Source of the DNA: Hamiltosporidium tvaerminnensis
Lineage: Eukaryota > Microsporidia > Dubosqiidae
Assembly: GCA_022605425.2 (NCBI GenBank)
Contig: CM061253.1
Coordinates: 384,501-448,500, forward strand
Direction of reading: 5' to 3'
DNA length: 64,000 nt
Below, piece by piece: positions 715-37,904 of this stretch. The notes below the pieces were generated by a model. The model worked only from the letters and a program-made list of their open reading frames with translations. It had not been told where the DNA came from and did not search any database. A program made the translations under genes and the position numbers. Each line of letters begins with the position of its first letter. Position 1 is the first letter of the stretch.

Positions 715-1280
715 GACATGTTAAGTCTGTAAGTAAGAAACGGTATGTATGTTGTTTCAGTATATAAAGGGGTATTTAAAGGGTGTTAGTCTTAAGAGGG
801 TGTTATTTATTTTACTGATTAGTAAAGGGTGTTGGTGTTAATAGGGTGTTAATAATATGTACTCATAATTAAAGGGTGTTAGTTTTAAGAGGGGTTAACA
901 ATATGTACTATTAATTAAAGGGTGTTAGTTTTAAGAGGTGTTAATAATATGTACTAATTATAGGGTCTTAAAGAATATTTATTTAAAGGGTTAGTGTTTA
1001 AGGGGTGTTAATACAAGGAGATGGTATTTAAGAGGTGTTAATAATATGTACTTATAATTAAAGGGTGTTAGTGTTATGAGGTGTTAATAATATGTACATA
1101 TAATTAAAAGGTGTTAACATCATTACTTATAATAAAGGGGTTTTATTAATTACTACTGCAATAAAAGGGTGCTAACCTTAACCCTTATATTTAAAGGGGT
1201 GTTAATATCAATACTTATAATAAAGGGGTTTTATTAATTACTACTTATAATAAAAGGGTGTTAAGAGACAAAATAACTAA
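715..1280. repeat. AGGGTGTTA-type spacer minisatellite
   Basis: The spacer between the VAP-like and Gid8-like genes is filled by imperfect 40-65 bp units. Each unit has AAAGGGTGTTAGT, AAGAGGTGTTAATAATATGTACT and TATAATTAAAGGG segments. The same AGGGTGTTA word recurs in other spacers and, in frame, inside the Gid8-like and Dis3 genes. No ORF is seen. Confidence 0.8.
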
Positions 1281-1369: not shown

Positions 1370-1660
1370 GAAGGCTACCTCTTATACCAACCCTCTTACA
1401 CTAATACAATACTAACCTTCTTATACTAATACATTACTAAACCTTATACCAACACTTTTACACTGATAGATTACTAACCTATTATACCAATACATTCCTA
1501 CCCTAACCCCAACCCTAACCCTAATATATGCATAAACACTATAACCCTAACCCTAATATATGCATAAACACTATAACCTAACCCTAATACATTACTACCG
1601 CTTATCTAACCCTAACCCTAACCCTAATATATGCATAAACAACTATAACCCTAATAAACC
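1370..1660. repeat. Interstitial telomere-like CCCTAA runs
   Basis: Runs of CCCTAACCCTAACCCTAA alternate with TATATGCATAAACACTATAA spacers, at least four times between about 1,498 and 1,650. They are preceded by CTTATACCAATACATTACTAAC repeats. CCCTAA is the reverse complement of the common eukaryotic telomere unit TTAGGG. The run lies inside a gene island, so it is an interstitial tract or a repeat that merely resembles a telomere, not a chromosome end in this window. Confidence 0.7.
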
Positions 1661-1672
1661 ACCATTAAAATC

Positions 1673-3052
1673 CTATGAATTATAACTCCTAAAACTAGGA
1701 AACTTATACTTCCTACTAAGCTTACTCTCCCCTACAACAATACCCTTTAACACCTCTTTCAACTCACTACTATTACCATCATATATACTCATTAACACTC
1801 CATTAACATACCCACCTACTCTTCTTCTTCTCATTTCTATACTATCTCCTTCTCCAAATACAAAATATTCCATTAAATCTTCTAAATTACTTACTAATCC
1901 ACTGTTACTCTCTACAATAGGTGCTAATTCACTTTGTATAAAATTTAAAGCTTTATCTACTAAATCATCCTTAAAATGTAAATTGTAATCTTTAAAAGAA
2001 GTATTGTTAGTAGTGGATATAGTGTTAGTAGATAGAGTGTTAGTACTAAGAGGGTGTAAGGTATTAGTACTGTTACTAACAGGGTCTTGTTCATAGGTAG
2101 TGTTACTAACAGGGTCTTGTTTATTACTACTATTACTAACAGGGTGTAAGTTATTTCTACTGTCGTTAACAGGGTGTAAGGTATTAGTACTGTTGTTAAC
2201 AGGGTCTTGTTCATTAGTACTCTTGTTAAGAGGGTGTAAGGTATTAGTACTGTTGTTAACAGGGTCTTGTTCAATAGTACTGTTGTTAACAGGGTCTTGT
2301 TCATAGGTACTATTAATAACAAGGTGTAAGTTATTAGTAATGTTGTTAACAGGGTCTTGATTATTACTACTGTTACTAGCACCCTTATAATCATTTGACT
2401 CGTTATTATCACCCCCCTCTATCCTACTACTACTAATACCCTTATAATCATTTGACTCCTTACTAACACCCCCCTCTATCCTACTACTACTAATACCCTT
2501 ATAATTATTTGACTCCTTATTATCACCCCCCTCTATCCTACTACTATCCCTAACACCCTTATAATCATTAGACTCCTTATTATCACCCCCCTCTATCCTA
2601 CTATTACTAATACCCCCTTCTATCCTACTATTATTATCACCCCCCTCTATCCTACTATTACTAACACCCCCCTCTACTCTATTATCCCCTACAACTATAC
2701 CACACAAATGACACTCATTAATATACTCTGCTGCCTTATGCTGCATAAGAGAATAATACATATCAACACTACTATCAAGTATACTACTATCAATATCATT
2801 AATACGTTGTATTGCTTCATCAACACATCCACGTTCTAAACACTTACGTAACATATCTCTATCTTTAAATAATTTATCATTTTTAGGAATTAAATTTGTT
2901 TCTAAAGCAAATGTATGATACATATCGTATAATCCTTCATAATAGAAATAGTCTAGTATTAGTGTGTTATGAGATAAAGGTGATATTAATGACCAAGGGT
3001 GTTGCCATTCTGTGTGTGATAAAGAAGGTGTTTCTCGTTTAGAGTGTCTCAT
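1673..3052 (-). CDS. Gid8-like LisH-CTLH protein with low-complexity insert
   Basis: The 459-residue product resembles Gid8/TWA1, a scaffold subunit of the GID/CTLH E3 ubiquitin ligase that in yeast degrades gluconeogenic enzymes. A LisH-like motif lies at about residues 27-52 (LILDYFYYEGLYDMYHTF). A CTLH-like helical block follows at about 63-115 (DMLRKCLERGCVDEAIQRI, then a MYYSLMQHKAAEYI segment). A CRA-like tail covers about 350-459 (ALNFIQSELAPIVES and later helices ending in KYKFPSF). Between CTLH and CRA, about 230 residues are repeats of SRIEGGDNKESNDYKG and NNSTNEQDPV/NTLHPV. Without them the protein would be about 230 residues, the usual Gid8 size. The ATG at 3,052 has a CCCC motif just upstream. 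Other LisH-CTLH-CRA proteins (RanBPM, Gid9) are possible, but the length minus insert favours Gid8. Confidence 0.78.
   Translation of the reverse strand: MRHSKRETPSLSHTEWQHPWSLISPLSHNTLILDYFYYEGLYDMYHTFALETNLIPKNDKLFKDRDMLRKCLERGCVDEAIQRINDIDSSILDSSVDMYYSLMQHKAAEYINECHLCGIVVGDNRVEGGVSNSRIEGGDNNSRIEGGISNSRIEGGDNKESNDYKGVRDSSRIEGGDNKESNNYKGISSSRIEGGVSKESNDYKGISSSRIEGGDNNESNDYKGASNSSNNQDPVNNITNNLHLVINSTYEQDPVNNSTIEQDPVNNSTNTLHPLNKSTNEQDPVNNSTNTLHPVNDSRNNLHPVSNSSNKQDPVSNTTYEQDPVSNSTNTLHPLSTNTLSTNTISTTNNTSFKDYNLHFKDDLVDKALNFIQSELAPIVESNSGLVSNLEDLMEYFVFGEGDSIEMRRRRVGGYVNGVLMSIYDGNSSELKEVLKGIVVGESKLSRKYKFPSFRSYNS
1985..2690 (-). repeat. In-frame repeat insert in Gid8-like gene
   Basis: Two repeat families stay in frame within the gene. 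The C-proximal one encodes NNSTNEQDPV/NTLHPV units (about 30 bp or multiples, containing AACAGGGTCTTGTT or AACAGGGTGTAAG). The N-proximal one encodes SRIEGGD-NKESNDYKG units (CCCCCCTCTATCCTACTA words). Unit lengths are multiples of three. The first family also occurs in the Dis3 gene. Confidence 0.85.
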
Positions 3053-3059
3053 TAATAAA

Positions 3060-3063
3060 GGGG
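3060..3063 (-). promoter_or_regulatory. C-rich motif at start codon of Gid8-like gene
   Basis: The coding strand reads ACCCCTTTATTA immediately before the ATG at 3,052. This is a microsporidian-style C-rich start-proximal motif. Confidence 0.45.
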
Positions 3064-3115
3064 TAGTTAAATAAAAGGAGAAGAAGTTAGTTGTAGGGTA
3101 ATAGCAGGGTGTTAC

Positions 3116-3440
3116 TATATAGTAATAGGTATAGGGTTATAATTACTAGGATGGTTATAGGGTTATAATAATTACTAGGATGGTTATAGGGTTATAATAA
3201 TTACTAGGATGGTTATAGGGTTATAATTACTAGGATGGTTATAGGGTTATAATTACTAGGATGGTTATAGGGTTATAATTACTAGGATGGTTATAGGGTT
3301 ATAATTACTAGGATGGTTATAGGGTTATAATTACTAGGATAGGTTATAGGGTTATAATTACTAGGATAGGTAAGAGGGTGATAATTACTAGGATGGTTAT
3401 AGGGTTATAATTACTAGGATGGTTATAGGGTTATAATTAC
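3116..3440. repeat. 26-bp minisatellite
   Basis: At least eleven near-perfect direct copies of TAATTACTAGGATGGTTATAGGGT-type units occur, with occasional 3-bp TAA expansions and single-base variants. The tract lies in the divergent spacer between the Gid8-like and dUTPase genes. There is no spacer diversity between copies, so it is a tandem array and not a CRISPR. Confidence 0.9.
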
Positions 3441-3445
3441 GGTCT

Positions 3446-3722
3446 AATAACTAACACCCTCTTATCTACTAGTACTACTTATTATTAACACCCTCTTATC
3501 TACTACCCTCTAACATATCCTTATTATTAACACCCTCTTATCTACTACCCTCTAACATATCCTTATTATTAACACCCTCTAACTTATCCTTATTATTAAC
3601 ACCCTCTTATCTACTACCCTCTAACATATCCTTATTATTAACACCCTCTTATCTACTACCCTCTAACATATCCTTATTATTAACACCCTCTTATCTACTA
3701 CCCTCTAACATATCCATTACCC
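3446..3722. repeat. 42-bp AACACCCTC minisatellite
   Basis: About six direct copies of a 42-bp unit are built from TAACACCCTCTTATCTACTA and CCCTCTAACATATCCTTATT. Shorter deletion variants are present. It carries the same AACACCCT word found inside the Dis3 and Gid8-like coding repeats. Confidence 0.88.
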
Positions 3723-3915: not shown

Positions 3916-4293
3916 ATGAATGTCATTACAACCGGTAATATAAAAAAGAATAACACTTCATACTCCTTATATTCCAACAACAACTACACATTAAAACCTA
4001 AGACCCTACAATATATACATACAGGTGTTAATATTTCAATACCAAATAATAATTTTGGTTTACTTACAAGTACTAAGTATAAGATAATGGGTGGTGTTAT
4101 AGATAGTGATTATAGAGGAGAAATAGTTGTTATGATTTATAATATATATGATGAGTGTATATGTGTTAGTAAGGGTGATGAGATATGTAGAATGTATGTT
4201 GTTAGTATTTGTACACCTGAGCTTGTTATGGTGGATGAGTTAGAAGAGAGTGAAAGGGGGGATAAAGGGTTTGGATCAACAGGAAGGAAATAA
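3916..4293 (+). CDS. dut: dUTPase-like protein (dUTP pyrophosphatase)
   Basis: The 125-residue protein is a trimeric-type dUTPase homologue. The family hydrolyses dUTP to dUMP and pyrophosphate, keeping uracil out of DNA and supplying dTMP synthesis. Motif 3 is intact (GVIDSDYRGEI, with the catalytic-type Asp in GVID), and so is the C-terminal motif 5 (RGDKGFGSTG). The motif 1 position reads NTSYSLYS where the family has DAGYDLYS. Motif 2 reads LLTSTKYKI instead of the PRSG-type phosphate-binding loop. Motif 4 is GDEICRM, where GDRIAQ(L/M) is usual. At 125 residues it is slightly short for the family. The altered motifs 1 and 2 leave enzyme activity uncertain. The ATG at 3,916 is the third of three 76-bp registers and the only one that opens the full frame. 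Confidence 0.82.
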   Translation: MNVITTGNIKKNNTSYSLYSNNNYTLKPKTLQYIHTGVNISIPNNNFGLLTSTKYKIMGGVIDSDYRGEIVVMIYNIYDECICVSKGDEICRMYVVSICTPELVMVDELEESERGDKGFGSTGRK

Positions 4294-4337
4294 AGGGTTA
4301 TATTTTTATAGTAGGGTTATAGGATAATGAAAGGGGG

Positions 4338-4538
4338 ATAAAGGGTTTGGATCAACAGGAAGGAAATAAAGGGTTATATGTTATAGTGGATGAGTTAGAA
4401 GAGGGAATAAAGGGTTTGGATCAACAGGAAGGAAATAAAGGGTTATATGTTATAGTGGATGAGTTAGAAGAGGGAATAAAGGGTTTGGATCAACAGGAAG
4501 GAAATAAAGGGTTATATGTTATAGTAGGGTTGTAGGAT
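4338..4538 (+). repeat. 69-bp repeats derived from the dUTPase 3' end
   Basis: Three units of 69 bp (GATGAGTTAGAAGAG, then GGAATAAAGGGTTTGG, then ATCAACAGGAAGGAAATAAA) repeat the last codons and stop region of the dUTPase gene. A short deletion relative to the gene shifts the frame, so the motif-5 DNA now reads GLDQQEGNKGLYVIVDELEE in an open 23-residue periodicity. That frame has no independent start of note, and I do not call it a gene. Confidence 0.85.
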
Positions 4539-4549
4539 AGTAGGGTTTA

Positions 4550-5079
4550 TTGATTAAATTAATGGGTTTTAACACATTTTATTTACTTATATTATAACAC
4601 CCTTATAATATTACTATTTACTATATTTATATTATAACCCTTTTATTTACTTAGTATTTCTACTTATATTTATAACCCTTTAATACTTACTTATATTATA
4701 ACCCATTTTATTTCTACTTATATTTATAACACCCTTATAATATTACTATTTACTATACTTATATTATAACCCTTTTATTTACTTACTATTACTACTTTAT
4801 TATAACCCTTTAACTTACTACTTATATTATAACCCTTTAATACTACTTATATTATAACCCTTTATTACTACGTATATTATAACCCTTTAATAACCCCTTT
4901 AATACTACTTATACTATAACCCTTTTACAACCCCTTTAATACTACTTGTATTATAACCCTTTAACTTACTTATATTATAACCCTTTAATACTTACTTATA
5001 CTAATACTAACACCCCTTTATTCCCTACCACATCCCTATAACTAACCCCCTTATCTCCTTTATATTTATAACCCCTTTA
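4550..5079. repeat. TATAACCCTTTAATA-type spacer repeat
   Basis: The spacer consists of imperfect copies of ACTTATATTATAACCCTTTAATACT of about 25-45 bp. It ends in CCCCTTTATTCCCT before the Swi3-like start. No ORF or RNA gene is seen. Confidence 0.75.
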
Positions 5080-5089
5080 TTCCCTACCC
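5080..5089 (+). promoter_or_regulatory. CCC-type motif at start of Swi3-like gene
   Basis: TTCCCTACCC runs directly into the ATG at 5,090. This is the clearest example in the window of a C-rich motif touching the initiation codon. Confidence 0.5.
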
Positions 5090-6748
5090 ATGCAAAATAT
5101 TTTCCCTTTCCCCGAAGAAATAGAATACGAAGAAATCTACGGACAAACCCTACCAGATGCACACCCACCCAAGCAACAACACACACACAACCTAAAGAGC
5201 AGTGGTAGTATTAGTAATGGTAGTATTAGTAGTATTAGTAATACCAGTACTACTTGTAATACAAATACCAGTACTAATACCAGTACAAATACCAGTACTA
5301 ATACCAGTACTAATACCAGTACTAATACCAGTACTAATACCAGTACTAATACCATTACTAATACCAGTACTCCCCCCACTAATACCATTATCACCATCCC
5401 TTCATTCTCTAAATGGTTTTCTTTTACTTCTATACACAACATAGAACACCAAGCATTTCCAGAAATAAAAAAAGACATTTCATTTTCAAATATATACATA
5501 CATTACCGTAACACCCTTATAAATACATATCAAAATAATACCAAAGTATATTTAACAATAACATATTCTCGTAAATTAATTTCTTGTAATTTACATATGT
5601 TAATACGTATACATTCTTTTCTTGAGAAGTATTGTCTTATTAATTATAAGGTAGAACATAGATATGTGTTACAAGGAAGAGAGGATATTAAAAGGATAAG
5701 AATTGAACAACTAGGGGGTATAGTGGGTATTAATTGTGATAGTAGTAATAAAAGGGATAATATAAGGGATAATAGTAATATAAGTAATAGTAATATAAGG
5801 GATAATATAAGGGATAATAGTAGTAATATAAGTAATATAAGGGATAATAGTAATATAAGGGATAATAATAGTAATATAAGTATAAAAGATAATAATAGTA
5901 ATATAAGTATAAAAGATAATATAAGGGATATAAGTAACACTAACCAAATAAATAACCCTACTAATAACCCTACTAATAACCAAATAAATAACCAAATAAA
6001 TACGCAAGATATCCCTGACTTTACTACGCTTAGGTGTGGGTGTGGTGGGGGTTTGAGTGAGTGTTGTTATTATTGTGATAAATTAAATATATTTATATGT
6101 GGGGAGTGTTATGATAAGGGTATATATCCTATGGGTTGTGTAAGTGATATGTTTATAAAATATTCAAAATCTATTATTACTTGTGAGAGGTGGAGTTTAA
6201 AAGAAGAATTACTATTATTAGAAGGAATAGAGAAATATGAAGATGATTGGAATAGAGTGAGTGAGTATGTAGGTACTAAGAGTATGGAACAGTGTGTATT
6301 ACACTTTTTAAAGATGCCTATAAGTGATGATATAATATATAAAAATATAGAAATGTGTAAAGATGTAAGTATAAGTACATCTACAAATCCTATAATGAGT
6401 GTTATAGCGTTTATATGTAGTTGTGTACATCCTAGTGTTGCTAGTGAGGCAAGTAAATGGGCAATTCAGAGGTTTTCTGATGATATAGCAAAAATGACAG
6501 GTGTCATTTTTGGAGTGGCTGGGTATAAAGCGATGGAACAGAAGTGTGTGGAAGAGAAGAAGGTTGAGAGGTTGTTACAGGTTCTTGTTGAGAGTCAGAT
6601 TAAGAAAATGGAGCTTAAAATTGAAGATTTTAAGGTGTTGTGTGGTGTTGTTGAGAAGGAGAGAAGTGATTTGAATAGAGCGAGAGATAATTATAGGAAG
6701 GAGATTGAAGCAATAAAGGAGAAGATTGTGAGTATGAGAAGGGGGTGA
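5090..6748 (+). CDS. Swi3/Rsc8/SMARCC-like SWIRM-SANT chromatin remodelling subunit
   Basis: The 552-residue product has the domain order of the Swi3/Rsc8/Moira family, core scaffold subunits of SWI/SNF-RSC nucleosome remodellers. A SWIRM domain covers about residues 103-190 (PSFSKWFSFTSIHNIEHQAF, then a LINTYQNN-type helix). A ZZ-like zinc finger covers about 314-350 (CGCGGG, CCYYCD, CGEC). A SANT/Myb domain covers about 366-410 (RWSLKEELLLLEGIEKYEDD, TKSMEQCVLHFLKM). A conserved helix follows at about 434-460 (IMSVIAFICSCVHPSVASEA), and a charged coiled coil covers about 488-552. Two low-complexity stretches interrupt it: TSTN repeats before SWIRM (about residues 60-98) and NIRDNSNIS repeats between SWIRM and ZZ (about 222-305). 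The protein is expected in the nucleus. Confidence 0.88.
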   Translation: MQNIFPFPEEIEYEEIYGQTLPDAHPPKQQHTHNLKSSGSISNGSISSISNTSTTCNTNTSTNTSTNTSTNTSTNTSTNTSTNTSTNTITNTSTPPTNTIITIPSFSKWFSFTSIHNIEHQAFPEIKKDISFSNIYIHYRNTLINTYQNNTKVYLTITYSRKLISCNLHMLIRIHSFLEKYCLINYKVEHRYVLQGREDIKRIRIEQLGGIVGINCDSSNKRDNIRDNSNISNSNIRDNIRDNSSNISNIRDNSNIRDNNSNISIKDNNSNISIKDNIRDISNTNQINNPTNNPTNNQINNQINTQDIPDFTTLRCGCGGGLSECCYYCDKLNIFICGECYDKGIYPMGCVSDMFIKYSKSIITCERWSLKEELLLLEGIEKYEDDWNRVSEYVGTKSMEQCVLHFLKMPISDDIIYKNIEMCKDVSISTSTNPIMSVIAFICSCVHPSVASEASKWAIQRFSDDIAKMTGVIFGVAGYKAMEQKCVEEKKVERLLQVLVESQIKKMELKIEDFKVLCGVVEKERSDLNRARDNYRKEIEAIKEKIVSMRRG

Positions 6749-7040
6749 TATGAATAGTGGGTGTTAGTATGAGTATAGGAAGGAGATTGAAGCAATAAAG
6801 GAGAAGATTGTGAGTATGAGAAGGGGTGATATGAATAGTGGGTGTTAGTATGAGTATAGGAAGGAGATTGAAGCAATAAAGGAGAAGATTGTGAGTATGA
6901 GAAGGGAGTGATATGAATAGTGGGTGTTAGATGAGTATAGGAAGGAGATTGAAGCAATAAAGGAGAAGATTGTGAGTATGAGAAGGGGGTGATATGAATA
7001 GTGGGTGTTAGATGAGTATAGGAAGGAGGGTATGATATAA
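6695..7040 (+). repeat. 81-bp repeats derived from the Swi3-like 3' end
   Basis: The final coding segment (AGGAAGGAGATTGAAGCAAT up to the TGA) plus about 30 bp of 3' flank is repeated. Units start at 6,695 (in the gene), 6,777, 6,858, 6,939 and, partly, 7,020, giving periods of 82, 81, 81 and 81 bp. The copies outside the gene do not extend it, because the stop codon is copied too. Confidence 0.9.
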
Positions 7041-7352: not shown

Positions 7353-8079
7353 TTATTTAAAAGTATAACATCTTTTTTTTAAAACAGTGGCAAGTGTTAT
7401 ATTTGTTTTCATGACATTAACGCAGTTCTAGGTTTAACATAAATAACTATTGTTTAACAGTTCATCGGTGCTTCTGTAATACCTATGTTACTTATATTTT
7501 CATCTACCAGGTGTGTAGAACCTAATTACTAGGCGAGGCAGTTGCCCGGGGTTCGTTAATGTCCGTTGCATGGAGTGTGATCGAAGGCCGAAGCCCCCCT
7601 GGGCTCCCCCAAGACTATGCAGCATTCCCACTTACTCTACACTTTCTGAACCCAATAAACTTCTAGCTAAGATATATTTCAGAGATTTACATGGGGTCCA
7701 CCTAGACAGTGCAATGGTATGCCAACAGGTATGACCTGCTAATTAGCTTTCCCGGCTTTTAATGGTTTTTATTTTTATATCTCCCAGGCGCTAAGTCTTT
7801 TGGCCCGAGTGAGCAAGGCTTGGTTTCCATGCTTTTACATGGCAATTATCTACAAGTTTAGCTGCTATCTGCAATCTGGTTACATAAAAAACTACAATAA
7901 ATTTGTAAAAATGGTTTCGCCTTTTCTTAGACCACTTCCCCTAATAACAACTCCCATGGAACAACCGAAGATGTAGTGTGGTTGTATTCCACCAAAAATC
8001 CAAACCGTGACTTTACACCAGTTTCACAGACTCATTACCAAGCAGAAAGTTTTTTATGTGGGTATCCTCTTTCCACTAA
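7353..8079. repeat. About 730-bp dispersed repeat, copy 1
   Basis: This block is clearly richer in G+C than its surroundings and is repeated in the same orientation at 55,478-56,208 with high identity, and in decayed form at 41,165-41,800. Shared landmarks are GGCAAGTGTTATATTTGTTT, GACATTAACGCAGTTCTAGG, TACCAGGTGTGTAGAACCTA, ATGCAGCATTCCCACTTACT and TTTCCATGCTTTTACATGGC. No long ORF is conserved between copies, so it may be a non-coding element (SINE- or MITE-like) or part of a larger one. On the minus strand it lies just downstream of the retrotransposon fragment at 8,095-8,705. Confidence 0.8.
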
Positions 8080-8094
8080 TATTTTTTATTGTAA

Positions 8095-8705
8095 TAAAAT
8101 TCAGGGTTAAAATATTTTTACCATTTTTTTATGTTTTCTTCTAGCTCTTTAACCACTGCTGTCTCTTCTTCCAAATCCGACTCTTCATTTATGTTGTTGG
8201 TCGGTTCCTCTAAAGTGGTCCTCCTTCTGAAATAAGGGGTGTATTATTTTTCGGTTTAAAATTTTTTGCACCACCTTCCTCTCTCTTCGCTTCTTTTAAA
8301 GGAGGTGTTGGTTCCTCATGCATCTCTGCTCTCATAATAACACCCATTGACGCTCTCTCGCAGCTCTCTTCGGCATTTAGTCCTGACTCAAATCCTCCTT
8401 GTCGATCAAAGGAAATTGTTTCGACTTTCTTCTTAAGTACTATAGACTGAATGTATGCCTCTAGATTCATGAGTATTTCAAGTCTTTTAAAAAGATCTTT
8501 ATGGTATTTTGTCACAATACCGCCAGGTCATGACATAAGGGATTACCTCAACACCACACTTATAAATAAGACCCAACTCATTGGCTAGCAGGTCATACTT
8601 CCTAAGTTTTTTAGTTTCAACCATTTGAAGTGAACATTGGAAAGTGATTTCTACTTCAATGAGTGTTATCTTATTCTTCTTCTTATCTAAAATAAATATG
8701 TCCGG
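8095..8705 (-). mobile_element. 5'-truncated retrotransposon 3' end
   Basis: On the minus strand this matches the last 0.6 kb of the retrotransposon copies at 28,443 and 48,857. It starts inside the endonuclease segment (GPDIF-type, LDKKKNKITLIEV), continues through YIQSIVLKKKVETISFDR, and ends with the non-coding tail AATATTTTAACCCTGAATTT. The abrupt 5' loss is typical of incomplete target-primed reverse transcription. The reading frame is broken. It adjoins the 730-bp repeat. Confidence 0.85.
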
Positions 8706-33870: not shown

Positions 33871-36800
33871 CTACCCTTTTACGATTTCAAAGTCATACCC
33901 CCTTCCACTAAAAAACTTTTTATCATTTCCACCTACCTTAACCCTTATATTATCAAATAATTTATATTTATTCTCTTCTTCCACCTTAACAAACCCTTCT
34001 ACATCACAATCAGGTATATAAATAATAACACCATTATCTTTAACACCAACAACACACCCTTCCATAACACTACCACTTACTTGATAGTATATTTTTAACA
34101 TTCTACTTTCTCTACTCACAACTTTAGCACTGTAATTCTTATCATTAAGCCGATTAACAGTGCAATCAGAAAGAATAGTAATATTATTGTTAGTATTGTT
34201 AGTACTACTGCTACTATTATTATTTTTGTTATTATTAGTAGGTGAGTCGTTATTATTATCAAATCTACTAGTAATACTACTACCAGTATGATTCTCAATT
34301 CTATTATTAGATATTTCAGTGTTGATAGTATCACACCCACTGTTATTACTACACACCTCATATAATTGCCTGTGAACTAATATGTCTGCATATCTACGTA
34401 TTGGTGATGTAAAATGTGTATAAACATCTAATCCTAATCCATAATGTTTTAACTCTTTAATATTACCATTATTAATGAAATATTTTGCTCTGTCCATACA
34501 TCTTGCCATATAACTTCTCCATACCTTAATATCAACATTACTTGGTCTTATAATATGGTGTTTAGAGGAAATATTGTTAATATCCTTTGTATCTTTAAGA
34601 TCTTTTATATTATCTTTATAATTAACACCCTTTAAATTACTATCCTTATTATTAACACCCACCCCTCCCTTTATACTACTATCCATATAATTAACACCCT
34701 CCATACCCTTTATACTACTATCCTTATAAGTAACACCCTCTGTACACATTGAACGTATTGCTTCACTCTCAGTATGAATTCGTAACAAGCAACCCTTTCC
34801 TCTCTTCCTAATCAATTCTTTACCAACTAAAGAATTAGTAAGAACCATAATTTCTTCTACAAGAAAATTTGTTAGAATACCACCAACACTTAAATCCATA
34901 GCTTCTTTTTTTCTTTCATTTCTTATTATTTCTACTATTTTCCATAATAAATTCATATCTTTAGAATATTTATTTTTTATATTTTTTATATTTTCAAAGG
35001 CTTCTTCGTATGTAAAAGCTTTGGTGTTTTTTATTAAAGATTTGGTAAAACGTACATTTGATATTCTTACTGAAGTAAAGGTATTAGATAGATTGTTGTT
35101 AGTATAAGTAGTATTGTTAAAGGGGGGTAAGGTATTAGATAGATTGTTAACAGGGTCTTGTTTATTGGTACTGTTACTAACACCCTGTTGTTTACTAGTA
35201 CTATTACTAATACCCTCTAATTTACGTTCCATATTATTAATACCCTTTAATTTATTATCCTTATTACCAACACCCTCTAATTTACTATCCTTATCACTAA
35301 TACCCTCTAATTTACTACCCATATCATTAACACTCCCTAATTCCCTACCACTATTACCAACACCCTTTATATCATTATAACACTCTACCTCTATAATAAC
35401 ACTGTAAGCATATCTTCTACATCCTTCTCTTAAACTACATACATCACCACTTAACCATTCCTCTATCATATCTACTCTACCGCCCTCTACATATACACTT
35501 GTTCCTCTTCTCATAGCTCGTTTGTCCATTTCACTACCACTTTGTACAAAATGACTTACATCTGCAATATGAACACCTATTTCAACAGTTGTGGTGTTAG
35601 TTAAAGGGGTTTTAGTATCTGTACTAATGTTCCGAGGGGTGTTAACAATACTACTGTTGTCCAAAGGGGTGTTAATAATACTACTGTTATACAAAGGGGT
35701 GTTAACACTACTACTGTGATCTAAGGGGGTGTTAATAATACTACTGTTATCTAATGGGGTGTTAATAATACTACTAGATAAGAGGGTGTTAACACTACTA
35801 CTGTTATCTTTTAGTATTCTTACACTTATTGCATCATCAATATCTGTACATCCTAATGGATCTATAGAGAATACATTTAAATACGTTAAATCTTCTCTTT
35901 TACTATCTGTTACATTACTACCTTTAAGAAATGGAATACTACTCTCATAAACATCTAAATCAAAGTAACTAACTGTCTTATTAGAAGATATAGCACAAGT
36001 ATTTATGCAAGTATTTAGGGTTAGAGTAGGGTTAGGTTTTATGAGAGTATTTAGGGTTATACTAGGGTTAGGGTCTATATAATTCTTATCTCTATTTATT
36101 GTATTTATTATCTGAGTACATCCTCTTCTTATCCTTTCAATATCTATACTATCATATTCTATACAATGTTTAAGTAATAAACACTGTGTCTCTACAAACA
36201 TATCACCTACATTTCCTAATACATTAATAATTTTACCGTAAATCCGTTTATTACTTAAATAAGGTAATATTCTTACTGTTATTTTCTTATTAAGTAATTC
36301 TTTATAATTAACAGTCTTTATTCTTATTAAAGGTATTTTTAAGTCACAGGGAACAACAATAGAATAAGTTCTATCAGTAATATTAGTGGTATTAAAGGGG
36401 TGTTGTTTATCAGTATTCTCGTTAACACCCTTTATACTACTATCATTATTATTAACACCCTTTATATCCCTATCATTATTATTAACACCCTGTTGTTCAT
36501 TTGATAGCTTATTAACACCCTGTTGTTCATTGGATGACTCGTTAACACCCTTTATATTACTATCCTTATTATTAACACCCTTTATATTACTATCCTTATT
36601 ATTAACACTCTCCAGTATGCCTCTATCACTACTATTCTCTTCTATTTCATCATCTAAAGAACTATTTTCATTATAAAATATATAATCCTTAAAACAACAC
36701 ACAAACTCCTTATCTGTTCTATTAATAACACTTATAATCTTACTATCTCTAATACTAACAGTATCATTATCTATTGCACCGTTATTATCATATATTTGTA

Positions 36801-37719
36801 TTTTTTTATTATTTATTTTAATATAACCTGTATAAGGTGTTATTGCATTGTAAATTAAAGGGGTTTTATAAGTAAGTAAAGGTAGTGTTAATATATTGTA
36901 AGAAGATAAAGGGTAGATGTTCTTTAGATAGGTTATAACTCTAAGGATGTTATAGTGAGGGGGGTATTGAGTAGTATTGTTATTAGGGGGGTATTGAGTA
37001 GGATTGTTATTAAGAGGATATTGAGTAGTATTGTTATTAAGAGGGTATTGAATAGTATTGTTATTAAGAGGGTGTTGTTCAATAGATAGCTTAGTAACAC
37101 CCTGTTGTCCATTAGTACTGTTGCTAACACCCTCTAATTCATTAGATAGTTCACTAACACCCTGTTGTCGATTAGTAGTGTTGCTAACACCCTCTAATTC
37201 ATTAGATAATTCACTAACACCCTGTTGTCGATTAGTAGTGTTGCTAACACCCTCTAATTTACTACTCTCCCCTCTATCTCTATCACCCTTTATACTGCAT
37301 ATACATGTTGTGTTATTACAGTTATTATAAATACATTCTAAACTGTTAAGATAAAAGGTATTAACACCTAACTGATAAGAATTTAAATATTTAACACCAA
37401 CAACATTAATATCAAACAAATCAAGTATATAAATAACACCTGTATACGATATATACTGTTTAATTCTATAAAATCTTTTTAAATTAATATTTTGTATTTT
37501 TCTTAATTCTGATTGCAATATAATTATATTTTTAGATATTTTTAATAATTTATTTATATCTACGTAGAGAAGAAGTGTAGATGTAGGTAGTATGTAGGGT
37601 ACTGTATCATGTGTATGGTCTATATGTGGTGGGTCTATGTAACGGGTGTGGTTAAATAATATTGTTTTTTTTAGCTTTTTACGATTTGATATTTTTCTAG
37701 TGTAGGTGTGTGTTATCAT
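33871..37719 (-). CDS. Dis3/Rrp44 exosome 3'-5' exoribonuclease
   Basis: The 1,282-residue protein is the catalytic exosome subunit Dis3/Rrp44 (RNase II/RNB family), which degrades and trims RNA 3' to 5' in nucleus and cytosol. A PIN-like N-terminus covers about residues 45-150, with YVDINKLLKI (Asp at about 54) and IILQSELRKIQNINLKRFYR resembling the Rrp44 PIN. OB-fold/CSD parts follow, including YGKIINVLGNVGDMFVE. The RNB domain covers about 615-1,130 with the metal-binding motif FSIDPLGCTDIDDAIS, then IGVHIADVSHFV, RRGTSVY and the late THFTSPIRRYADILVHRQLY. A C-terminal S1-like domain ends the protein. All catalytic Asp residues of the RNB core are present. It is about 300 residues longer than usual because at least five in-frame repeat blocks (GVSNTTNRQQ, GVNNKDSNIK, NTPLDNSSIV types) interrupt it. 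It has ATCCCTT directly before the ATG. Urm1 lies upstream on the same strand. Confidence 0.93.
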   Translation of the reverse strand: MITHTYTRKISNRKKLKKTILFNHTRYIDPPHIDHTHDTVPYILPTSTLLLYVDINKLLKISKNIIILQSELRKIQNINLKRFYRIKQYISYTGVIYILDLFDINVVGVKYLNSYQLGVNTFYLNSLECIYNNCNNTTCICSIKGDRDRGESSKLEGVSNTTNRQQGVSELSNELEGVSNTTNRQQGVSELSNELEGVSNSTNGQQGVTKLSIEQHPLNNNTIQYPLNNNTTQYPLNNNPTQYPPNNNTTQYPPHYNILRVITYLKNIYPLSSYNILTLPLLTYKTPLIYNAITPYTGYIKINNKKIQIYDNNGAIDNDTVSIRDSKIISVINRTDKEFVCCFKDYIFYNENSSLDDEIEENSSDRGILESVNNKDSNIKGVNNKDSNIKGVNESSNEQQGVNKLSNEQQGVNNNDRDIKGVNNNDSSIKGVNENTDKQHPFNTTNITDRTYSIVVPCDLKIPLIRIKTVNYKELLNKKITVRILPYLSNKRIYGKIINVLGNVGDMFVETQCLLLKHCIEYDSIDIERIRRGCTQIINTINRDKNYIDPNPSITLNTLIKPNPTLTLNTCINTCAISSNKTVSYFDLDVYESSIPFLKGSNVTDSKREDLTYLNVFSIDPLGCTDIDDAISVRILKDNSSSVNTLLSSSIINTPLDNSSIINTPLDHSSSVNTPLYNSSIINTPLDNSSIVNTPRNISTDTKTPLTNTTTVEIGVHIADVSHFVQSGSEMDKRAMRRGTSVYVEGGRVDMIEEWLSGDVCSLREGCRRYAYSVIIEVECYNDIKGVGNSGRELGSVNDMGSKLEGISDKDSKLEGVGNKDNKLKGINNMERKLEGISNSTSKQQGVSNSTNKQDPVNNLSNTLPPFNNTTYTNNNLSNTFTSVRISNVRFTKSLIKNTKAFTYEEAFENIKNIKNKYSKDMNLLWKIVEIIRNERKKEAMDLSVGGILTNFLVEEIMVLTNSLVGKELIRKRGKGCLLRIHTESEAIRSMCTEGVTYKDSSIKGMEGVNYMDSSIKGGVGVNNKDSNLKGVNYKDNIKDLKDTKDINNISSKHHIIRPSNVDIKVWRSYMARCMDRAKYFINNGNIKELKHYGLGLDVYTHFTSPIRRYADILVHRQLYEVCSNNSGCDTINTEISNNRIENHTGSSITSRFDNNNDSPTNNNKNNNSSSSTNNTNNNITILSDCTVNRLNDKNYSAKVVSRESRMLKIYYQVSGSVMEGCVVGVKDNGVIIYIPDCDVEGFVKVEEENKYKLFDNIRVKVGGNDKKFFSGRGYDFEIVKG
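34600..37265 (-). repeat. In-frame minirepeat blocks inside the Dis3 gene
   Basis: Blocks at about 34,600-34,735, 35,090-35,370, 35,590-35,815, 36,385-36,610 and 36,955-37,265 consist of units of 30-60 bp with TAACACCCT, TTGTTCATTAGTACT or CCTTTATACTACTATCC words. They sit between conserved domains or in loops and preserve the frame. Some peptides (NSTNKQDPVNNLSNTL) are close to those of the Gid8-like insert. Confidence 0.85.
36005..36080 (-). repeat. Telomere-like hexamers inside Dis3 coding sequence
   Basis: TATTTAGGGTTAGAGTAGGG and TTAGGGTTATACTAGGGTTA lie in frame and encode ITLNTLIKPNPTLTLNT. The words resemble the interstitial CCCTAA tract at 1.5 kb. Confidence 0.6.
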
Positions 37720-37720
37720 A

Positions 37721-37725
37721 AGGGA
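37721..37725 (-). promoter_or_regulatory. CCC-type motif at Dis3 start
   Basis: The coding strand reads TATATCCCTT immediately before the ATG at 37,719, matching the start-proximal C-rich motif of neighbouring island genes. Confidence 0.5.
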
Positions 37726-37904
37726 TATATTTATAGTGATAATATAGGGAGAGGTGTTATAATATGGTGGGGATATTATAGGGATAGAAGGGTGTTATTT
37801 AGCTAGGTATGTTTTTAGGGGTAGAAGGGTGTTATTTACTAATATTTATTAAAACTGGTATTTACTATCACATTCTTTCACATGAATAACCAAAAAATAA
37901 AACT

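Follow-up and report, generated by a model that had tools for sequence, protein, structure and literature searches.

Tandem repeats within protein-coding genes are well known as coding minisatellites, or variable-number tandem repeats (VNTRs), which usually concern one locus and one unit. The low-complexity inserts of Plasmodium and Toxoplasma likewise lie in frame within conserved proteins and, to our knowledge, have no single shared DNA unit. Here we analyze a stretch of 64,000 nucleotides (the window; positions 384501-448500 of contig C8, CM061253.1) from Hamiltosporidium tvaerminnensis, a microsporidian parasite of Daphnia (water fleas), in which the open reading frames (ORFs) of a Gid8-like protein and of the unrelated Dis3/Rrp44 carry related arrays of a 30-base-pair (bp) unit. 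These arrays share with VNTRs the tandem units within an ORF and the copy-number variation (short-read misassembly of a record being possible), but differ from them in that one unit family, whose two core types follow each other in a set order, extends across many loci.

Three further systems are comparable. The Rickettsia palindromic elements (RPEs; PMC10969869), to which the initial annotation of the window likened these repeats, also constitute one repeat family lying in frame in unrelated genes. The comparison holds in effect, as the Hamiltosporidium repeat is found in frame in unrelated genes and also outside genes, but it does not extend to identity: RPEs are bacterial elements of ~150 bp, whereas here 30-bp tandem units are found in a eukaryote, with no visible fixed upstream border of a single ~150-bp element with defined ends, and with all matches coming from Hamiltosporidium as opposed to Rickettsia. 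As regards the RPE hairpin, the core TAACA-GGG-TGTTA is quasi-palindromic by eye; the arms of the arrays show no covariation, and their folding does not depend on unit order (see below). PARCEL (PMC2996958) likewise comprises tandem coding repeats thought to shuffle in genomes, with dyad symmetry in the DNA; it is, however, a 25-residue amphipathic motif in ORFs without assigned functions from distant taxa, whereas the Hamiltosporidium repeat has a spacing of 10 residues, resides in conserved genes (e.g., those of Rpb1, Prp8, Sec7 and Dis3) and has matches from one genus only. Finally, Corradi et al. 2009 (PMC2784321), naming the Plasmodium and Toxoplasma inserts as a comparison, reported for the same organism (O. 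bayeri being an earlier name for H. tvaerminnensis; PMC10542269) in-frame insertions of 15-57 amino acids (aa) in 14 conserved proteins, situated, as here, between conserved motifs; the available part of that text describes no shared repeat, polarity, silent-site or spacer link. A kinesin frame (1140 aa), split at the place where a search of the Gid8-like protein against its own genome placed arrays, is suggestive of the identity of those inserts with the present family. Among the leading titles, which included few subscription journals and no supplements, no publication describing such a shared repeat in Hamiltosporidium was found, and the available parts of PMC12449221, PMC11878562 and PMC12134460 make no mention of it.

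The shared unit encodes 10 aa and is typically xAG-GGT-GTT-ART-AAY-AGT-ACT-AAT-AAA-CAA, with a second core form, CAC-CCT-GTT; we refer to the two as G-type and C-type. The initial annotation had pointed to a nearly identical peptide in the unrelated Gid8-like and Dis3 proteins, and both versions are present as described: SNSSNKQDPVSNTTYEQDPV is encoded at 2078-2137 (minus strand) within the Gid8-like ORF, which also contains NTLHP at 2051-2065, 2171-2185 and 2231-2245, and SNSTNKQDPVNNLSNTL at 35128-35178 (minus strand) within the Dis3 ORF. The Smith-Waterman score of the two proteins is 177, against a maximum of 129 among 500 Dis3 shuffles (in 60-aa windows), and BLASTP yields an E-value of 2e-10, a likeness in excess of chance and local composition. 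The Pfam CTLH match of the Gid8-like ORF scores 20.9 bits, under the family cut-off of 26. Residues 11-114 of human GID8 match the protein, and residues 119-216 match weakly (5.1 bits alone), which implies that about 250 residues of repeat lie between neighboring GID8 positions. As placed solely by this alignment, the insert would extend over about 1958-2716, slightly wider than the 1985..2690 given initially. The Dis3 protein has four stretches of 20 residues or more (60, 25, 71 and 102) that are missing from the homologs of Vairimorpha bombi, P0015 and Chrysoperla, and all four are made of repeat. The corresponding features of the window are as follows:

1673..3136, minus strand: Gid8-like ORF, 487 aa from stop to stop (PDB phmmer match to human GID8, E 1.1e-7)
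1958..2716, minus strand: repeat insert of the Gid8-like protein, residues 141-393, between the matches to human GID8 114 and 119
2367..2669, minus strand: G arm of the Gid8 insert (coding strand), 57-bp period
2047..2375, minus strand: C arm of the Gid8 insert (coding strand), 30-bp period
33871..37794, minus strand: Dis3/Rrp44 ORF, 1307 aa from stop to stop
36962..37259, minus strand: Dis3 array 1, G then C, polymorphic by 20 aa
36422..36608, minus strand: Dis3 array 2, G then C
35590..35802, minus strand: Dis3 NTPL array, unit in antisense, 71 aa, missing from three homologs; polymorphism of 9 and 10 aa within and adjoining the array
35077..35382, minus strand: Dis3 array 3, G then C, containing SNSTNKQDPVNNLSNTL, 102 aa, missing from three homologs
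34625..34740, minus strand: Dis3 array 4, G-type units only

In-frame sharing of the unit by unrelated genes extends far beyond these two, with units extracted from 43 ORFs. Across the genome (21,638,905 bases in 17 contigs; the published assembly is given as 21.64 Mb in 17 contigs, PMC10542269), RAGGGTGTTA has 2,911 copies as compared with 75 in the reversed control, and the words CAGGGTGTTA, TAGGGTGTTA and CACCCTGTTA have 612, 262 and 434 copies versus 4, 31 and 6, respectively. The Gid8-like protein has 104 matches in its own genome (self included), 98 of them without an internal stop, spread over all 17 contigs and 64 open frames, the latter being a hand count by contig and frame length, of frames rather than genes, among the best candidates scored. 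When the Gid8-like protein and a repeat-rich protein served as queries in protein searches (about 8,000 candidates scored in each), only Hamiltosporidium was recovered, in 9 of 9 and 41 of 41 matches (query included). The carriers, in each of which arrays were counted, include Rpb1, an RNA polymerase beta subunit, Prp8, poly(A) polymerase, Sec7, IKI3, myosin, VPS13, USP7, TFIID subunit 2 and Spc97/98. The distribution is patchy: one of nine TCP1 frames is clearly in two pieces. The commonest spacing of core tokens in proteins is 10 residues (1077 cases), and arrays have a median span of 269.5 bp and a maximum of 917 bp.

The silent sites of these units indicate that they are shared as DNA. The set compared comprises 477 units whose core tokens follow one another at exactly 10 codons; they come from 43 ORFs, within 33 merged stretches totaling 191,869 bases. 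The token definition fixes codons 0 and 1 and leaves codons 2-9 free. Valine at position 2 has GTT as the majority codon in all 43 ORFs (background 0.45). For lysine, all 22 of 22 ORFs have AAG at position 5, yet 32 of 34 have AAA at position 8; similarly, leucine is CTT at position 2 in 17 of 21, yet TTA at position 9 in 17 of 17, while serine is AGT throughout at positions 3, 5 and 7 (35, 37 and 30 ORFs). Silent identity between ORFs exceeds the expectation from codon usage at seven of the eight free positions, falling below it at position 4 (0.514 versus 0.579). Further, 167 of the 477 have their closest unit at a different locus and 257 at their own, with 53 ties, and 138 units have a cross-locus neighbor at no more than two mismatches, as against averages of 24 and 56 under two shuffled nulls. 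Such position-fixed silent sites mean that the sharing is at the DNA level and that common descent or copying, as opposed to convergence of peptides, accounts for the pattern, in line with the DNA units across genes originally proposed.

Within the window, units were located with a 30-bp weight matrix trained solely on units from outside it, at hand-set cut-offs of 14 and 12 bits that, to rounding, equal or exceed the shuffle-derived 14.07 and 8.66. The Gid8-like ORF has 14 units, all sense and in a single phase, and Dis3 has 28 sense and 4 antisense units, with a further 6 and 3 in the two spacers flanking Gid8 and 2 in a SWIRM ORF; in the other five stretches scanned (the window minus 1-240) there are none. 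The spacer matches bear out the claim that the units also occur between genes. The word AACACCCT/AGGGTGTT, initially put forward as the link to the spacers, has 30 + 15 exact copies in the window, mostly in spacers and Dis3, but a single one, at 2552, inside the Gid8 insert, where GACCCTGTT and CACCCTGTT prevail; the Gid8 link is hence the unit rather than that exact word. Family units are absent by the matrix scan from 7200-28492 and 38494-64000, so that the arrays cluster around carrier genes. The features around the Gid8-like ORF are:

776..1264, no strand assigned: spacer G-rich array with AGGGTGTT
1381..1654, no strand assigned: spacer C-rich arrays, telomere-like at 1511-1654
3130..3440, no strand assigned: spacer G-rich array, unit 26 bp
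3478..3715, no strand assigned: spacer C-rich array with AACACCCT, its reverse complement similar to the coding G unit
4258..4525, no strand assigned: spacer G-rich array, unit 69 bp
4587..5000, no strand assigned: spacer C-rich arrays
5072..6748, plus strand: SWIRM/Myb ORF with two unit matches and repeats of its own

The expectation that the repeat keeps the reading frame is borne out within ORFs, where 684 of 745 cores in clusters are in phase 0 and 630 of 659 core spacings are multiples of 3, as compared with 89 of 177 in spacers (defined by the lack of any 150-aa ORF, and possibly including frameshifted genes), whose common spacings include 28, 29, 86 and 26. A T before AGGG, which in phase 0 creates the stop TAG, precedes 4 of 522 G cores in ORF clusters versus 22 of 186 in spacers. 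In a word-selected sample of the first 30 CAGGGTGTTA sites (all on contig C1 and partly from one gene), the 26 within ORFs of at least 300 aa are in phase 0 in 22 cases, phase 2 in three and phase 1 in one. Matches to the matrix number 881 in sense phase 0, 13 in sense phase 2 and 68 in antisense, to be read with the training of the matrix on sense phase-0 units in view, and 184 in 70,294 spacer bases. Separately, CAGGGTGTTA is found in another phase within a repeated frame AELNNRVLASS (loci L051, L052 and L053), perhaps of a transposon protein.

The suggestion that the inserts occupy surface loops finds support in Dis3 alone. An AlphaFold2 model of its residues 449-1307 (mean predicted local distance difference test score, pLDDT, 60.1; predicted template modeling score 0.62; 400 of 859 residues at or above 70) has Rrp44 as its top Foldseek match, no regular structure at the arrays and seven segments with pLDDT below 50. 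In model numbering, segment 1-39 contains the end of array 2, 124-180 contains telomere-like repeat, 223-280 antisense repeat, and 364-453 and 562-636 repeat of the main kind, whereas 704-756 is N/S/T-rich without the unit and 516-523 is short. By this model, whose confidence at the arrays is low, they look like disordered loops between folded parts. Removal of the inserts by splicing, raised as a counter-case at the outset, is unlikely judging from the available part of Corradi et al. 2009 (PMC2784321), where reverse-transcription polymerase chain reaction (data not shown) revealed no insertion removed from messenger RNA; that result concerns in-frame inserts of this organism and does not cover Gid8-like or Dis3.

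A further regularity concerns the order of the two core types. In 51 Hamiltosporidium proteins (including several non-independent ortholog pairs, with P0013 excluded as a near copy of Dis3), 188 token clusters comprise 153 mixed, 28 G-only and 7 C-only ones; the G-type leads in 148 of the mixed clusters, the C-type in 2 and neither in 3, with full separation in 108. At the DNA level, with a limit of 150 bp, GGG is ahead of CCC in 43 of 46 ORFs (the order is opposite in 2 and equal in 1) and in 10 of 12 spacers (opposite in 1, equal in 1). With a limit of 300 bp, this holds for 47 of 51 ORFs (opposite in 4) and for 15 of 21 spacers (opposite in 5, equal in 1). For neighboring tandem arrays, the coding counts are 16 versus 1 when the family word is on both sides and 11 versus 4 when it is on one side; spacers give 6 versus 1, and pairs with one array in each of coding and spacer DNA give 4 versus 2. 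The polarity is not a general property of repeats, as arrays without the family word give 4 versus 3; it is therefore a feature of this family. Along the G arm, CAG units are nearer the center than GAG/AAG units (p 5e-7); the first unit of arrays is GAG in 45, AAG in 24, CAG in 5 and out of phase in 8. The G-to-C junction is exactly 30 bp in 41 of 62, and the 565 core slots hold GGG in 360, CCC in 177, a G/C mixture in 2 and other forms in 26. We take the polarity and the discrete cores to mean that the arrays descend from a single polar block containing two discrete kinds of unit, of which the C type may have arisen by a switch at the quasi-palindrome TAACA-GGG-TGTTA. Fold-back copying, by which the C arm would be the reverse complement of the G arm, was rejected, since HPV-type units keep the G-unit orientation and differ at the core; this relation does fit the Dis3 NTPL array and, by eye, the spacer array 3478-3715.

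Comparison of records bears on the age of the arrays. Two H. tvaerminnensis records of Dis3 are distinguished by three indels (20, 9 and 10 aa), each of them inside arrays, with no indel among 797 aligned residues outside them. Among 12 record pairs (one without an anchored array), all 36 arrays with anchored flanks are present in both records, differing in unit number in 22. Of these 22, 5 are among the 11 arrays compared within H. tvaerminnensis, and 17 are among the 25 compared between it and its sister H. magnivora. The sites thus predate the species split, while the unit number still changes. Across these pairs no empty site and no recent jump was seen, in a comparison with weak points in two-token arrays, the overlapping records P0134 and P0005 and possible short-read misassembly. 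Dispersal looks old. Of the spread among genes and spacers initially envisaged, the DNA-level relation stands, and a spread going on at present is not supported.

These observations are best accounted for by an old polar coding minisatellite family of Hamiltosporidium, dispersed by DNA copying and held in frame by selection, to which we assign a probability of about 0.6. A short polar block of G-core units (LEGV/YKGV/QQGV) followed by C-core units (QHPV/LHPF), probably a single ancestral one, would have been copied at the DNA level, most likely by ectopic templated repair, into many genes and spacers before the H. tvaerminnensis/H. magnivora split. Slippage or unequal exchange would later have altered the arrays where they stood, in many cases by adding or removing complete 30-bp units. 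Selection would remove copies that break the frame, carry stops or fall in folded parts, whereby in genes mostly one phase and loop positions would survive. Foremost among the new facts are the silent sites fixed by position, the use of a single reading phase and the rule that G precedes C.

Several points weigh against this account. Most stretches were picked by the core word or by protein similarity to the Gid8-like protein. Silent sites at position 4 are unfixed, with mixed asparagine codons, as is serine at position 6 (AGT in 16 ORFs, TCT in 7, TCA in 3). Units average 2.9 mismatches to those of their own locus versus 3.4 elsewhere, with 257 of 477 strictly closer within the locus, and subfamily structure may be behind part of the cross-locus excess. 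Counting the nearest opposite-run switches in ORFs, there is no G-to-C excess within 400 bp (191 versus 198); the count within 60 bp is 154 versus 84, and the two together form the pattern expected of alternating blocks. Only 22 of the 65 indels in masked repeats across the 12 record pairs have a length divisible by 10 aa, and 14 involve one residue each, probably as noise of the alignment; a further 11 indels lie outside the mask, in three pairs, several by eye in other tandem repeats. Lastly, as no new insertion was seen, the copying is something that we infer.

A bolder version, which we regard as tentative, views the repeat as a selfish protein-coding minisatellite with essential genes as its main habitat and GGG/CCC states, copied between genes, perhaps by a two-ended break-repair route, and having entered a large part of the core proteome in a single genus. 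In such a selfish minisatellite the G side would nearly always be 5' and the C side 3', and, equally tentatively, either state would be readable in the host frame.

Somewhat more doubtful is derivation from many insertions of a non-autonomous element akin to miniature inverted-repeat transposable elements (MITEs), with ends GGG...CCC expanded into tandem repeats and the polarity reflecting the inverted ends. A polarity that is identical from either strand and present in family arrays of both genes and spacers is consistent with this, as are the NTPL arrays carrying the unit in antisense. However, the bases upstream of 69 arrays reveal no fixed border (information in front of the core not exceeding 0.60 bits per position), the HPV-type C units are in G-unit orientation rather than its reverse complement, and there is no empty site in which target-site duplications could be sought.

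Two-ended break repair from telomere-like sequence, in which both 3' ends of a break are extended with G-rich telomere-like repeats and joined, leaving G left and C right in arrays that later diverge, appears improbable. The telomere is indeed (TTAGGG)n (PMC10542269), contig C8 starts with (CCCTAA)n, telomere-like words occur within genes and spacers, and telomeric insertions at break sites are known in vertebrates (PMC8537989). Additionally, AGGGT is the commonest GGG context in spacers (398 of 660) and ORFs (1411 of 1888), as compared with 27 of 158 in background stretches of the window. Nevertheless, in the main unit AGGGT is mostly followed by GTT, unlike interstitial TTAGGG repeats, which would continue with TAG (186 versus 10 in spacers, 707 versus 117 in ORFs); the junctions are in register, and the arrays without the family word lack polarity.

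It is very unlikely that the arrays have a function of their own as an RNA hairpin or a peptide. The G-core and C-core words are complementary, and the fold energy is low relative to dinucleotide shuffles (mean z -2.5, standard error 0.30; 26 of 28 eligible arrays), but permuting the order of units barely alters it (mean z -0.39, standard error 0.24) and the bases flanking the arms do not covary (p 0.19 to 0.72), on which grounds a messenger-RNA hairpin with pairing arms was rejected as the driver. That slippage produced the repeat anew in every gene, starting from a like local composition, is the counter-case named in the initial annotation and is scarcely credible: tandem arrays with changing unit numbers are typical slippage products and units are on average closest to those of their own locus, but the opposite codons for the same amino acid at different unit positions, alike in most ORFs, and the excess of close cross-locus neighbors over both nulls contradict it.

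The repeat is real and, in the searches made, confined to one genus. A single DNA repeat seems to have altered the form of many conserved but unrelated proteins of a eukaryote, with DNA-level rules beneath the protein code, and offers many natural replicates for asking where proteins tolerate insertion and how minisatellites move between loci. A further question is whether the arrays contribute to protein length, which is reported to be greater in this microsporidian with its large genome. In practical terms, protein similarity within Hamiltosporidium can be merely the shared repeat.

Other repeats and candidates were encountered alongside the family. No ribosomal RNA was confirmed near 7400-8100, there being no Rfam match at the gathering cut-off in window 1-40000. 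A second, minor telomere-like family, CCCTAA followed by TGCATAAAC within 3-6 bases, has 47 genome sites versus 0 in the control and is found in the window at 1511-1654 (spacer) and 36002-36072; Dis3 and other proteins carry its related peptide NPTLTLNTCIN/NPNPNKCIN. IKI3 (P0147, P0153 and P0158) has a separate coding tandem repeat outside the family, with a unit of ~25 residues containing NPLSIPSVAAI, which varies between records. The SWIRM ORF contains other in-frame repeat kinds (TNTS, IRDN/NNPT) at 5203-5371 and 5739-5936, and its 3' end (81 bp) is repeated about four times at 6685-7028, extending beyond the stop codon.
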